Shown here: in pieces, positions 3,165-61,012 of the stretch
Layout of the letters: each line of letters starts with the position of its first letter
How positions within the stretch are numbered: the stretch's first letter is position 1
Source: Roseinatronobacter domitianus
Lineage (GTDB): Bacteria > Pseudomonadota > Alphaproteobacteria > Rhodobacterales > Rhodobacteraceae
NCBI RefSeq assembly: GCF_023336755.1
Contig: NZ_JALZWP010000001.1
Span: 203,959 to 267,958 of the forward strand
Direction of reading: 5' to 3'
DNA: 64,000 bases
Made by a program: the position numbers and the translations under genes
Notes under the pieces: model-generated
What the model was told of the DNA's origin: nothing
The model's input: only the letters and a program-made list of their open reading frames with translations
Database searches by the model: none

Positions 3165-3938
3165 ATGAGTGAATCGATTTCCATCCGTGACCGCATCGGG
3201 CAGGCGCTGGGCCGATGGTTGGAACGCGACCGCCCGCAATTCGAACCGCGTGCAGCGCTCGACCCCGACACTTTGGTGCGCACTTTGCGGCGCGGCGATG
3301 TGCTGTTGGTCGAGGGGCGGGCCAAGATTTCGACCGCGATCAAGTATCTGACGCAAAGCACATGGTCACATGCGGCCCTGTATGTGGGTGATATGCTGCC
3401 GGGGCAGGGGCCGCACATGCTGGTCGAGGCGACGCTGCAAGACGGGGTTCATGCTGTGCCGCTGTCGAAATACGCGCGCGCGAATATCCGCATCTGCCGC
3501 GCGGTTGGGTTGTCAGAGGCCGAACGCAAGGCGGTGGCGCGCTATATGATCGACCGCATCGGGTATGAATACGATCTGCGTAACATCATCGACCTTGCGC
3601 GCTACCTGTTCCCGACTCCGCCTGTCCCGGTGCGTTTTCGTCGGCGTATGCTGGCGCTTGGGTCTGGTGATCCGACACGGGCGATCTGCTCGTCGCTGGT
3701 CGCGCAAGCGTTTCAATCGGTGCGCTATCCGATCCTGCCCGACATTCGCCGGTCGCGCGCGCACGGGTCCGACTATTCCCGGCGCGAGATATTCCACATT
3801 CGTCATCATTCGCTGTTCGTGCCGCGCGACTTCGACCTGTCGCCGTATTTCGAGATCGTGAAGCCAAGCATCCGCAACGGGTTTGACCACGGATTGATCG
3901 AATGGGCAGTTCAATCAGAGGCGAAAAATTTGGGGTAA
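3165..3938 (+). CDS. YiiX/YebB-like NlpC/P60-superfamily cysteine hydrolase
   Basis: 257 aa. The pattern is that of the circularly permuted papain-fold group: GDVLLVEG, then STWSHAALYVG with candidate catalytic His69, then LVEAT with Glu89, and late in the chain AICSSLVAQAF with candidate nucleophile Cys175. Family members hydrolyse amide or thioester bonds in lipids or peptidoglycan-related substrates; the actual substrate here is unknown. There is no signal peptide, so it is probably cytoplasmic or membrane-peripheral. Confidence 0.72.
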   Translation: MSESISIRDRIGQALGRWLERDRPQFEPRAALDPDTLVRTLRRGDVLLVEGRAKISTAIKYLTQSTWSHAALYVGDMLPGQGPHMLVEATLQDGVHAVPLSKYARANIRICRAVGLSEAERKAVARYMIDRIGYEYDLRNIIDLARYLFPTPPVPVRFRRRMLALGSGDPTRAICSSLVAQAFQSVRYPILPDIRRSRAHGSDYSRREIFHIRHHSLFVPRDFDLSPYFEIVKPSIRNGFDHGLIEWAVQSEAKNLG

Positions 3939-58657: not shown

Positions 58658-59572
58658 TCAGGCGACCGGTTCGACCGGTTGGCGGGCGCCGGTTTGTGAT
58701 GTCTTGGCGTCGCGGGTCAGCGCCATGGCCTTGCGCGCGGCGATTGCGGTCAGGGCCGGGCGCTCGCTGCGGGCGATGTGGCGGGTCAGGGCGCGCAGAT
58801 AGGCTTTGTCGCTATGGCGTTTGCGCAAGAGCGCGGCCAGCTTGGTGCCGGTCAGGCGGCCAGTGACCGCCAGTTCCATAATGGGCGCAAGCAGGTCCAT
58901 CCGGGCAAGCACCTCTGGCGTTGGGCCATAAAGGCGTGGGGTGCGCAGAACATGCACGAAAGGCCGCTGGAACAATGCTGCATGCATGCTGTCTTCCGGG
59001 CGGGACGGATCACTTACCACAAAGGCGTTGCGGCTGCCGTCGAGCATGTCGGGTGCAAAGCCGAAGCGGCTGCGGAAATCCAGCCGTCGCGCCCATTTGA
59101 AACGCGTGTCCCAAACCGCGAATTCCGGGTCGAGCGTGGCTTGCGGGGCAATCGCCAGAACCGTCGCACCCGGCGCGGTCAGGCTGAAGGCGCAGGCCGC
59201 GTAGCCGGCCATGCCGACACCGAAGAACAGCACGCGCTTGAAGCTGTCGAAGAACCCTTCGTCAATCTGCGCATCGAAAAAATCCAGCACTTCCGTGTCG
59301 CGATACCACCGCGGGGCACGGGCGATCAGGCTTAAGTGCGACCAGCCATTCGCCTCTGCGACGAGCAACCCGAGGGGTTTGTGTTCTGGGCCGGTGGCGC
59401 GACACTCTGCGATCGTCTCAAAGCTGACGATCAGGGTGTCATCGCCATCGGCATAGAATGCGGCGTGCTGGCTGCCCAGCGGGGTGAACGCGCCCAACTC
59501 ATCGCCCAATTCGTCCAGTCGTGCCAGCCATTCGGCATCGGTGCGCGCGGTGGAAAGGTCAATATCGGTCAT
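58658..59572 (-). CDS. Conserved Rhodobacterales protein of unknown function, alpha/beta-hydrolase-like core
   Basis: 304 aa, soluble. SLIARAPRWYRDTEVLDFFDAQIDEGFF leads to RVLFFGVGMAGYAACAFSLTAPGATVLAIAPQATLDPEFAVWD, which has the nucleophile-elbow layout of the alpha/beta-hydrolase fold, but the central residue is Met in GVGMAG instead of Ser. Homologues in this order are sometimes labelled phosphoadenosine phosphosulfate reductase; no PAPS-reductase motif is visible here. A basic C-terminus (LLRKRHSDKAYLRALTRHIARSERP) follows. Function not known. Confidence 0.7.
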   Translation of the reverse strand: MTDIDLSTARTDAEWLARLDELGDELGAFTPLGSQHAAFYADGDDTLIVSFETIAECRATGPEHKPLGLLVAEANGWSHLSLIARAPRWYRDTEVLDFFDAQIDEGFFDSFKRVLFFGVGMAGYAACAFSLTAPGATVLAIAPQATLDPEFAVWDTRFKWARRLDFRSRFGFAPDMLDGSRNAFVVSDPSRPEDSMHAALFQRPFVHVLRTPRLYGPTPEVLARMDLLAPIMELAVTGRLTGTKLAALLRKRHSDKAYLRALTRHIARSERPALTAIAARKAMALTRDAKTSQTGARQPVEPVA

Positions 59573-59771
59573 GGTTACCCTGCCGGATCATGGATTGCTG
59601 TAAAACTACCGAGCAGGACCTGCGCTGGCAAATCCCGCATGGCGAAGAAACGTCAAGTTTCTGTCAAAATCGAGGCAATCTTGAAGGATTGTTTGCGTAA
59701 CGCAGACTTTCCTCTGCAAAATAGCTGATTGTGCGCATTATCAGGTCTTTGACACGTTTGCGGTGCGCTTC

Positions 59772-59785
59772 TTGATCCAGATCAA
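59772..59785. promoter_or_regulatory. FNR/FnrL binding site
   Basis: TTGATCCAGATCAA is an exact match to the FNR-family consensus TTGAT-N4-ATCAA. Its centre is at 59778.5. If FnrL activates from -41.5, transcription starts near 59820 on the plus strand. TTATAC (59805-59810) or the nearby ATATAT lies roughly where a -10 would be. Confidence 0.75.
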
Positions 59786-59816
59786 TGAACGCCGGACACA
59801 ATGATTATACGCATAT

Positions 59817-59907
59817 ATATGTTTTTTGGCTTTGCCGGAAAACACTTTCCTCCCTGTCCCGCCGACACGCGGGTGACTAACCCGCCCTTGACCAAGGGCG
59901 GGCTTTT
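59817..59907 (+). ncRNA. Candidate FnrL-activated small RNA (about 90 nt)
   Basis: Between the FnrL-linked promoter and a strong terminator lies a compact transcript with three hairpins. The first is a U-rich stem (TTTTTTGGC, TTT loop, GCCGGAAAA, about 59822-59842, with G-U pairs). The second is CCCGC-CGACAC-GCGGG (about 59858-59873). The third is the terminator at 59881-59902. The single-stranded stretch between the first two reads CACTTTCCTCCCTGT, complementary to Shine-Dalgarno sequences. No open frame of note is present. The 5' end is an estimate. The remaining 59573-59760 shows no gene. Confidence 0.5.
59881..59907 (+). terminator. Intrinsic terminator of the candidate sRNA
   Basis: CCCGCCCTT (59881-59889) pairs with AAGGGCGGG (59894-59902), 4-nt loop, followed by CTTTTT. 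No annotated plus-strand gene precedes it, which is what first pointed to an RNA gene here. Confidence 0.88.
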
Positions 59908-60001
59908 TCCTTGCTCCGGATATGGTCTTTGACACCCGAGATGGCTTGCCGTGCTGTGCGTTGCGCTGCATAGTCGCGCCATGACCCAGAGCCGAGGCCC
60001 C

Positions 60002-61012
60002 ATGACGAACTCTTACGGCCCAGATTATGCCCTGCGTTGTCCCCGAACGGTGGTGTGGCTGTTTGTGTTGCTGTGCCTGGCTGTCATGCTGGTGCCGGGC
60101 GCGCTGCGTGCCCAAACACTGGAAGTGCGGCGCGATGCGGCGATTGCCGCCTGGCTGGCGGATGACGAATTGACGGGCTTGCGCGGCTTGGCGGATCTTG
60201 CGCATCAAGGTGATGCGCAAGCCCAGCTTTTCCTGGGGCTGATCGACCGCCATGCCGCGTTGCAGGGGCCAGCCGTGTTGGGCCTGACGCGGGCGGACCG
60301 AATTGCGCTGTTGCGCGCACCCGGCGGGATGTCTGGCCGCAACTGGGTGGGCGTCGCTGCCGAGCAGGGCAATGCGCTTGCGCGCGCGTGGCGTGCTATG
60401 GCCGAGGTGCAAAGCGACCTGGAGATGGCCGCCCAATTTGCCGAATTGGAAGAAACGCGCGCATTGGCGCAGGCGCTGCTGAGCATTGCAAAACGGCAAG
60501 AGCATGGTTTTGCCGCCGATATAGTGGCGCAGGACTGGTATCCTGAAACCTTGTTGTTTCTGTCGCCGGACATGACCCTGACCGCAGAGCGGGCAGCAGG
60601 GCTACATCCGGGAGATCCGCAGCACCGTTACCAAAATGGGCTGAAGCCACCCAAGGCCGCCTTGCAGGATTGGTTGGGGCAAGCCCCCGCTGCGCTGCAT
60701 TTGCGCGCGACCTGTGCCTCTGTCTGTCCGTCTGAGGCGTCGCAATGCGTGCTGGCGCTGTATCATGCTCTGGGCAATTATCAGGCGCTGCTTACCCATG
60801 GTAGCCCGGCGAACAGCATTGTCCCGGATGCAGAGCTGGCCGCCAGCCCGCGCGGGCAAGCTGCTCTGGCGCGGCGCATTATGCTGATGCGCTCGACCCG
60901 GATGCGCGAAGCAGAGCGCGTGAAACTGGTAGAGGTCAGCCTGTGCGCCACCGACTGGCTTGCCGCGCAATTCGAGGCGCATACCACGCGCAAAATCCCC
61001 GCGCCGCAGTAG
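60002..61012 (+). CDS. Exported conserved protein of unknown function, Sel1-like N-terminal half
   Basis: 336 aa from ATG 60002 (CGAGG 5 nt upstream); ATG 59981 is an alternative. A hydrophobic segment (VVWLFVLLCLAVMLVPGALRAQ) acts as a signal peptide. Helical sequence follows with LAHQGDAQAQLFLGLIDRH and VAAEQGNALARAWRAMAE, resembling Sel1/TPR-like repeats. The C-terminal part has cysteines in ATCASVCPSEASQCVLALYHALGNY and SLCATDWL. I do not recognise a function. It starts about 95 nt after the sRNA terminator and may have its own promoter. Confidence 0.7.
   Translation: MTNSYGPDYALRCPRTVVWLFVLLCLAVMLVPGALRAQTLEVRRDAAIAAWLADDELTGLRGLADLAHQGDAQAQLFLGLIDRHAALQGPAVLGLTRADRIALLRAPGGMSGRNWVGVAAEQGNALARAWRAMAEVQSDLEMAAQFAELEETRALAQALLSIAKRQEHGFAADIVAQDWYPETLLFLSPDMTLTAERAAGLHPGDPQHRYQNGLKPPKAALQDWLGQAPAALHLRATCASVCPSEASQCVLALYHALGNYQALLTHGSPANSIVPDAELAASPRGQAALARRIMLMRSTRMREAERVKLVEVSLCATDWLAAQFEAHTTRKIPAPQ

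Follow-up and report, generated by a model that had tools for sequence, protein, structure and literature searches.

The window, a 64,000-nucleotide stretch of the Roseinatronobacter domitianus genome, contains a predicted small RNA gene at 59772-59908 on the plus strand (Table 1). A divergent gene lies on one side of it. On the other is the 60002 gene, on the same strand as the RNA, with 93 nt between the T run and its ATG, and rimO lies further downstream. NCBIfam has no match to either neighbour at E 0.001, and no Pfam match to them exceeds the cut-off; a longer version of the 60002 frame gives a sub-threshold DUF4123 match (15.6 bits). Two minus-strand frames, 59741-60505 and 59782-60003, overlap the RNA stretch; a Pfam search at E up to 0.1 gave nothing for either. 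Across the window, no Rfam family, and no leader family among them, reaches its gathering score except one tRNA.

Table 1. Parts of the predicted RNA gene and its most constant neighbour (positions in the window)
Feature	Position	Strand	Basis
FNR/FnrL box TTGATCCAGATCAA	59772..59785	+	exact match, 0 mismatches
-10-like region	59805..59813	+	T and A conserved at box+36 and box+37
predicted transcription start	59819..59820	+	A of conserved ATGTTT, or the base after
predicted small RNA, ~90 nt	59819..59908	+	folds, covariance model, covariation
hairpin 1	59820..59844	+	fold; two-sided changes in 7/8 modelled pairs; 81.5% of cells paired
unpaired anti-Shine-Dalgarno seed TTCCTCCCTGT	59847..59857	+	conserved; common to SorX-type siblings
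hairpin 2 (CCCGC/GCGGG)	59858..59873	+	fold; 90.8% of cells paired; two-sided changes in 2/5 pairs
intrinsic terminator with U tail	59881..59908	+	scan; 98.1% of cells paired; two-sided changes in 6/9 pairs
divergent gene, 304 aa, most constant neighbour of the RNA	58658..59572	-	ortholog adjoins the RNA in 21/24 other genus loci

The original prediction, made from the window sequence, had proposed a perfect FNR box followed by a strong plus-strand terminator. Both were recovered. The box matches without mismatch and is the sole perfect match in the 64 kb, and the terminator scan places a hairpin at 59881-59902 and a T5 run at 59904-59908 (in 1.6 kb, the same scan found 7 terminator-like sites against 1.8 expected). 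Folding the 90 nt from 59820 yields three hairpins at -38.1 kcal/mol (z -4.35), with none of 200 shuffles as stable. This is consistent with the transcript of about 90 nt and three hairpins that had been envisaged, and the modelled structure covaries across the genus. The three-hairpin fold leaves UUUCCUCCCU unpaired, and TTTCCTCCCT at 59846-59855 is likewise unpaired. The anti-Shine-Dalgarno stretch proposed at the outset is thus unpaired, and it is conserved, but it forms an open linker rather than a loop; it is also the seed of SorX and SorY. A leaderless micropeptide starting at ATGTTT was rejected, since the distance from ATGTTT to the seed ignores frame (28, 29, 35, 37, 38 and others), leaving no conserved reading frame.

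FNR-like sites with up to two mismatches occur in the window at chance level (18 found versus 15.2 expected). Perfect sites number nine in the 3.36-Mb genome, and a reversed control pattern gives none. The other perfect boxes adjoin hemA, hemN/fnrL, ccoG, ctaD, and an Rrf2-type regulator, while the last three are inside or next to other frames (L021, L022, L027). The ctaD label refers to a fragment at the locus edge that scores below its curated cut-off. At that locus (L023, near 1501) the perfect box stands upstream of a ctaD-like aa3 oxidase gene, where FnrL repression is possible. FnrL itself is encoded in the genome (equivalog NF045989, 457.2 bits, cut-off 300).

Across 25 genus members carrying the RNA, the best upstream box has no mismatch in 18, one in five, and two in two. 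As controls, 100 stretches of 130 nt were taken near these loci: none has 0 or 1 mismatches, one has two, and 99 have three to five. Two of the 25 members (L050 and L051) lack a good box. The distance from box start to start motif is 47 nt in 19 members, 46 in three, 48 in one, and 49 in one; it is undefined in L051, where the best site is misplaced. The box centre thereby falls at -40.5 or -41.5 relative to the predicted start. A box centred near -41.5 is typical of class II FNR promoters. In a box-anchored profile of the members with distance 47, the -10-like T is present in 16/19 and the A in 19/19, and the middle part of the spacer between box and -10-like region is unconserved. The promoter scan found no match to a sigma-70-type consensus here; activator-dependent promoters often lack one. 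The class II start originally expected near 59820 agrees within one base with the putative start motif, and its spacing is kept in the genus. Box position and the FnrL gene point to class II activation by FnrL, from a start deduced from sequence.

Sixty genomes, 36 of them from the genus (including that of the window), were searched at the DNA level; 18 gave matches, all within the genus. Two (L016 and L017) are not this RNA, matching only a terminator-like stretch without seed or box. The remaining 16 align with a common box, ATGTTT, seed, and terminator. The original prediction had called for a covariance search for conserved stems in related genomes. Such a model, built on the transcript part, detected the RNA, at E 0.01 or better, in 25 of the 37 genomes searched from the genus, and the helices covary. 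The named genus records carrying it belong to Roseinatronobacter, Natronohydrobacter, and Roseibaca. In the 12 of 37 genomes where this model did not find the RNA, a second model, run at E up to 1, had 13 matches, spread over nine genomes. Nine of these matches, from seven genomes, are SorX-like siblings with the seed, which is missing at the match in the other four. The best FNR-like site within 180 nt of those nine siblings has two mismatches in one (L116), three in one, and four or five in seven.

The seed TTCCTCCCTGT does not vary among the 16 aligned members and is complete in 24 of the 25. Single folds of 15 of the 16 members are all better than the shuffle mean (z -2.57 to -6.39); L009 and L018 have a different 5' fold. 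Over 24 distinct sequences, pairing holds in 90.4% of cells and two-sided changes are seen in 15/22 pairs, with hairpin 2 the weakest in this respect. The covariation score is 0.450 versus 0.189 in shuffles, with 0/500 shuffles as high, on an alignment fitted to the model, which favours the model, and against shuffles that do not keep relatedness. When the pairing partner is slid, pairing falls to 43-54%. The box, the predicted class II spacing, the modelled hairpins, the terminator, and the unpaired seed are conserved together across the genus, with covariation.

A family search of 296 genomes from 295 genera gave a match in 11: two belong to the genus, and the nine outside it score weakly. 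The seed is absent from one of these nine (L060); in the other eight it sits in a SorX-like setting. This search scored 13 first-look candidates per genome and gives a lower bound on the RNA's presence outside the genus. Six of the eight seed-bearing matches were scanned with Rfam (L058 and L063 were left out), and all six are SorX hits at 24-41 bits, below the cut-off of 46.6. A scan for box plus seed in one genome per species (84,980 species) returned 44 stretches. Eighteen are genus members, from records named Roseinatronobacter, Natronohydrobacter, Roseibaca, or Rhodobacteraceae/Alphaproteobacteria without a genus; two (L088 and L099) are candidates from other Rhodobacterales, eight are from Alcanivorax, and 16 are chance-like. 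The Alcanivorax stretches represent one conserved stretch with no terminator behind the seed. Over 320 nt they are identical or nearly so under several species names (L065, L070, L071, L080, L086, L089, L093, L097), which is unusual at species-level divergence. L088 (Rhodobacteraceae Clear-D3, 3291-3441, plus strand) has the box TTGACTTAGGTCAA, then TTCCTCCCTGT in an apparent hairpin loop, then a terminator-like stretch, and gives a weak anti-hemB score of 27.7 bits.

The SorX model (RF02784) scores above its cut-off in 10/10 genus genomes tested; in 14 control genomes it matches in four, never over the cut-off. The genome of the window has five matches, all outside the window. One is a true SorX (L158, C2:232837-232914, 76.3 bits), and two are seed-bearing siblings, L176 (C16:50478-50539) at 41.3 bits and L184 (C1:136891-136962) at 27.2 bits. 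Two weaker matches (23.8 and 23.5 bits) are terminators without seed and were not counted as siblings. The three siblings have the seed CCTCCCTGT behind differing conserved upstream elements and lack a good FNR box; the window RNA is a fourth carrier of the seed. Among 22 sibling loci inspected (of 30 fetched), 21 have the seed, and no FNR box with fewer than three mismatches lies in the 180 nt upstream of these 21. We also asked whether the window RNA is itself a known family. It is not SorX, given no model match at E up to 10 (cut-off 46.6) and a separate true SorX in the genome. Nor is it SorY (RF02651; no match at E up to 10, cut-off 111 bits) or anti-hemB (RF02837; 25.1 bits, cut-off 49.5).

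The seed is complementary to a strong ribosome-binding site, and 16 coding sites CAGGGAGG or AGGGAGGA, that is (C)AGGGAGG(A), stand before an ATG in the same genome. This target set leaves out frames shorter than 70 aa and reverse complements of the sibling RNAs or of the window RNA. For the latter reason C2:232874 and C16:50515 in this genome, and L148 in the relative G060, were dropped by hand. C1:402328, a conserved stretch before a cobQ-like frame with no 70-aa frame and no Rfam match, was also dropped, and the site match C54:7837 in the relative G028 was left out of the comparison. By Pfam, 8/16 candidate targets are solute-binding proteins (six SBP_bac_1, one TctC, and one DctP). Of the remaining eight, two are short-chain dehydrogenases; the rest are a molybdopterin oxidoreductase, a xanthine-dehydrogenase-type subunit, an ATP-grasp CoA ligase, a P450, a DUF2160 protein, and a 501-aa frame that matched nothing at E 1e-8. 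We considered whether the DctP protein (L223) might be TakP; a DHPS-binding TRAP protein is its best solved relative.

A control set with the canonical site AAGGAGGA contains solute-binding proteins in 0/9 cases. The enrichment (8/16 versus 0/9; one-sided Fisher p 0.012) is small and post hoc. The site is kept in both relatives (G060 and G028) for 6/16 candidate targets and in one of them for five more, and solute-binding proteins make up six of these eleven. Seed-site duplex energies run from -15.6 to -20.5 kcal/mol versus -10.6 to -13.2 in the control set, a contrast that is partly by construction. The anti-Shine-Dalgarno stretch is a generic seed, and strong ribosome-binding sites may simply be usual for solute-binding genes. 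SorX and SorY are known to target transport genes (PMC5502269, PMC5036791, PMC6238624), among them potA for spermidine uptake and takP (PMC5502269, PMC6238624). These agree in kind with the solute-binding candidates.

Four genus genomes (L129, L130, L151, and L156) share a further, nearly identical stretch near 1380-1640 that contains ACAGGGAGGGATCCCGATG and GGGTGAAAGCACCGCG. In three of the four it precedes a cobQ-like frame. It has no Rfam match at E up to 0.1. It is possibly a leader RNA and could also pair with the seed.

Taken together, we think it likely that 59819-59908 encodes an FnrL-activated, Hfq-type trans-acting small RNA that keeps uptake proteins from being translated when oxygen is low. 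Comparison of genomes gives good support to the gene, its structure, and its link to FnrL; its expression, its dependence on FnrL and Hfq, the direction of regulation, and its targets we infer. At low oxygen, FnrL with its iron-sulphur cluster would bind the box at about -41.5 and activate transcription as a class II activator. The RNA would fold into the 5' hairpin, the open seed UUUCCUCCCUGU, the second hairpin, and the terminator, whose U tail would serve as the landing site for Hfq. An Hfq gene is present in the genome, and with the intrinsic terminator and U tail this matches the sequence pattern of an Hfq-type small RNA. The seed would then pair with extended ribosome-binding sites (C)AGGGAGG(A) and block translation. 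As a result, the cell would make less of the periplasmic solute-binding proteins that serve ABC, TRAP, and TTT transporters, and less of some oxidoreductases. The RNA would be an oxygen-controlled sibling of SorX and SorY, with the same seed under another promoter.

The hairpins could instead be the 5' leader of the 60002 gene, acting as an FnrL-controlled attenuator or riboswitch, an alternative that had been named beforehand. That gene does lie on the same strand, 93 nt past the T run, and its ortholog follows the RNA in 16 of 24 other genus loci. However, a strong intrinsic terminator precedes the gene, and the ortholog was not found at the other eight loci, at six of which the sequence downstream runs for about 1.5 kb or more (L073 and L098 are too short to tell). 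The ortholog of the divergent gene is the more frequent companion (21/24 against 16/24), and the RNA does not depend on the gene downstream. The most conserved part is, moreover, the open seed, and Rfam shows no leader family at gathering score, so that a leader is the least probable of the readings weighed here. The constancy of the divergent 58658-59572 gene raises another reading, in which the box serves that gene, the palindrome being symmetric, or is bound by a different FNR-type factor, with the small RNA constitutive or otherwise regulated. In R. sphaeroides, CrpK has binding determinants in common with FnrL (PMC4263372). Against a box that faces the other way, the plus-strand spacing from box to start motif stays at 46-49 nt in 24/25 members, together with a conserved -10-like element. 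We consider this second reading improbable.

Equally improbable, in our judgement, is that other RNAs or a protein, rather than the ribosome-binding sites of mRNAs, are the main targets of the RNA, which would then be a sponge for its siblings or a CsrA- or Hfq-type decoy. With one seed common to the three siblings, competition for targets or for Hfq is to be expected. Yet the sibling seeds are the same and not complementary, and candidate mRNA sites exist, 11/16 of them kept in at least one of the two relatives. A translation-blocking RNA under FnrL control accommodates these observations best.

This reading suggests that oxygen has been connected to an RNA circuit that already controlled nutrient uptake, because an FnrL-linked RNA carries the messenger-blocking stretch of the Rhodobacter stress RNAs SorX and SorY. 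More tentatively, and with doubt outweighing confidence, the genus may have extended a set of one-seed siblings with separate promoters by a fourth arm, driven by FnrL. Oxygen loss and other signals would then converge on AGGGAGG-marked mRNAs, mostly for transporter solute-binding proteins. If so, the AGGGAGG site would act as a code word that means 'shut off uptake on signal' and that interchangeable RNAs can read. The locus matters in that the FnrL link, the structure, and the seed are kept as one unit across a genus. Through it, oxygen could adjust nutrient uptake post-transcriptionally by a concrete route, and it would be a clean example of how sibling RNAs with a seed in common can differ in control.

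FNR-controlled small RNAs are best known from gamma-proteobacteria, and FnrS, from one of these, has another seed. No Rfam match to FnrS was found in the window. The control logic is nonetheless the same, FnrS of Escherichia coli being an FNR-activated trans-acting small RNA (PMC4263372). The Burkholderia anti-hemB RNA resembles the window RNA in having CCUCCCUG followed by two hairpins, in line with the weak score above, but the window RNA lacks the first stem of that model, and anti-hemB comes from a different class of bacteria. AbcR1 and AbcR2 of Rhizobiales are anti-Shine-Dalgarno small RNAs that shut off many ABC solute-binding proteins. Neither is among the Rfam matches of the window, and to our knowledge they are not FNR-controlled. 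Among the papers listed in open-access literature searches, none reports this RNA, its exact seed in Rhodobacterales, or small RNAs of these genera.

The closest relatives are SorY and SorX. The SorY model consensus (RF02651) contains the same seed, and SorY has its own promoter and acts on the transport gene takP (PMC6238624, PMC5036791); unlike the window RNA with its FNR box, it is RpoHI/RpoHII-dependent in R. sphaeroides (PMC5036791). SorX likewise has the seed CCUCCCUGU behind a 5' hairpin and a terminator hairpin downstream. The window RNA differs in an extra hairpin between seed and terminator, which separates the seed from the GACU that comes after it in SorX-like RNAs. It also has its own box and start rather than deriving from an ompR 3' UTR, and its upstream neighbour is divergent and without a Pfam match. 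Both SorX and SorY of R. sphaeroides co-precipitate with Hfq, and SorX is the former RSs2461 (PMC5036791). In that species FnrL ChIP-seq sites lie near two small RNAs, with an effect that could not be established, and one such site is in the RSs2461 promoter region (PMC4263372). In Tateyamaria sp. Alg231-49 (L099, 6413-6547, minus strand), a SorX above the cut-off (59.8 bits) has an FNR box, TTGACCCAGATCAA, 90 nt before the seed, and lies just after a frame that by eye resembles a response regulator. SorX itself may therefore have an FnrL promoter there. With the ChIP-seq site at RSs2461, this box raises the possibility that FnrL control of the seed arose, or was kept, more than once. By its predicted promoter and its seed, the window RNA joins both the FNR-controlled small RNAs and the SorX/SorY seed group.
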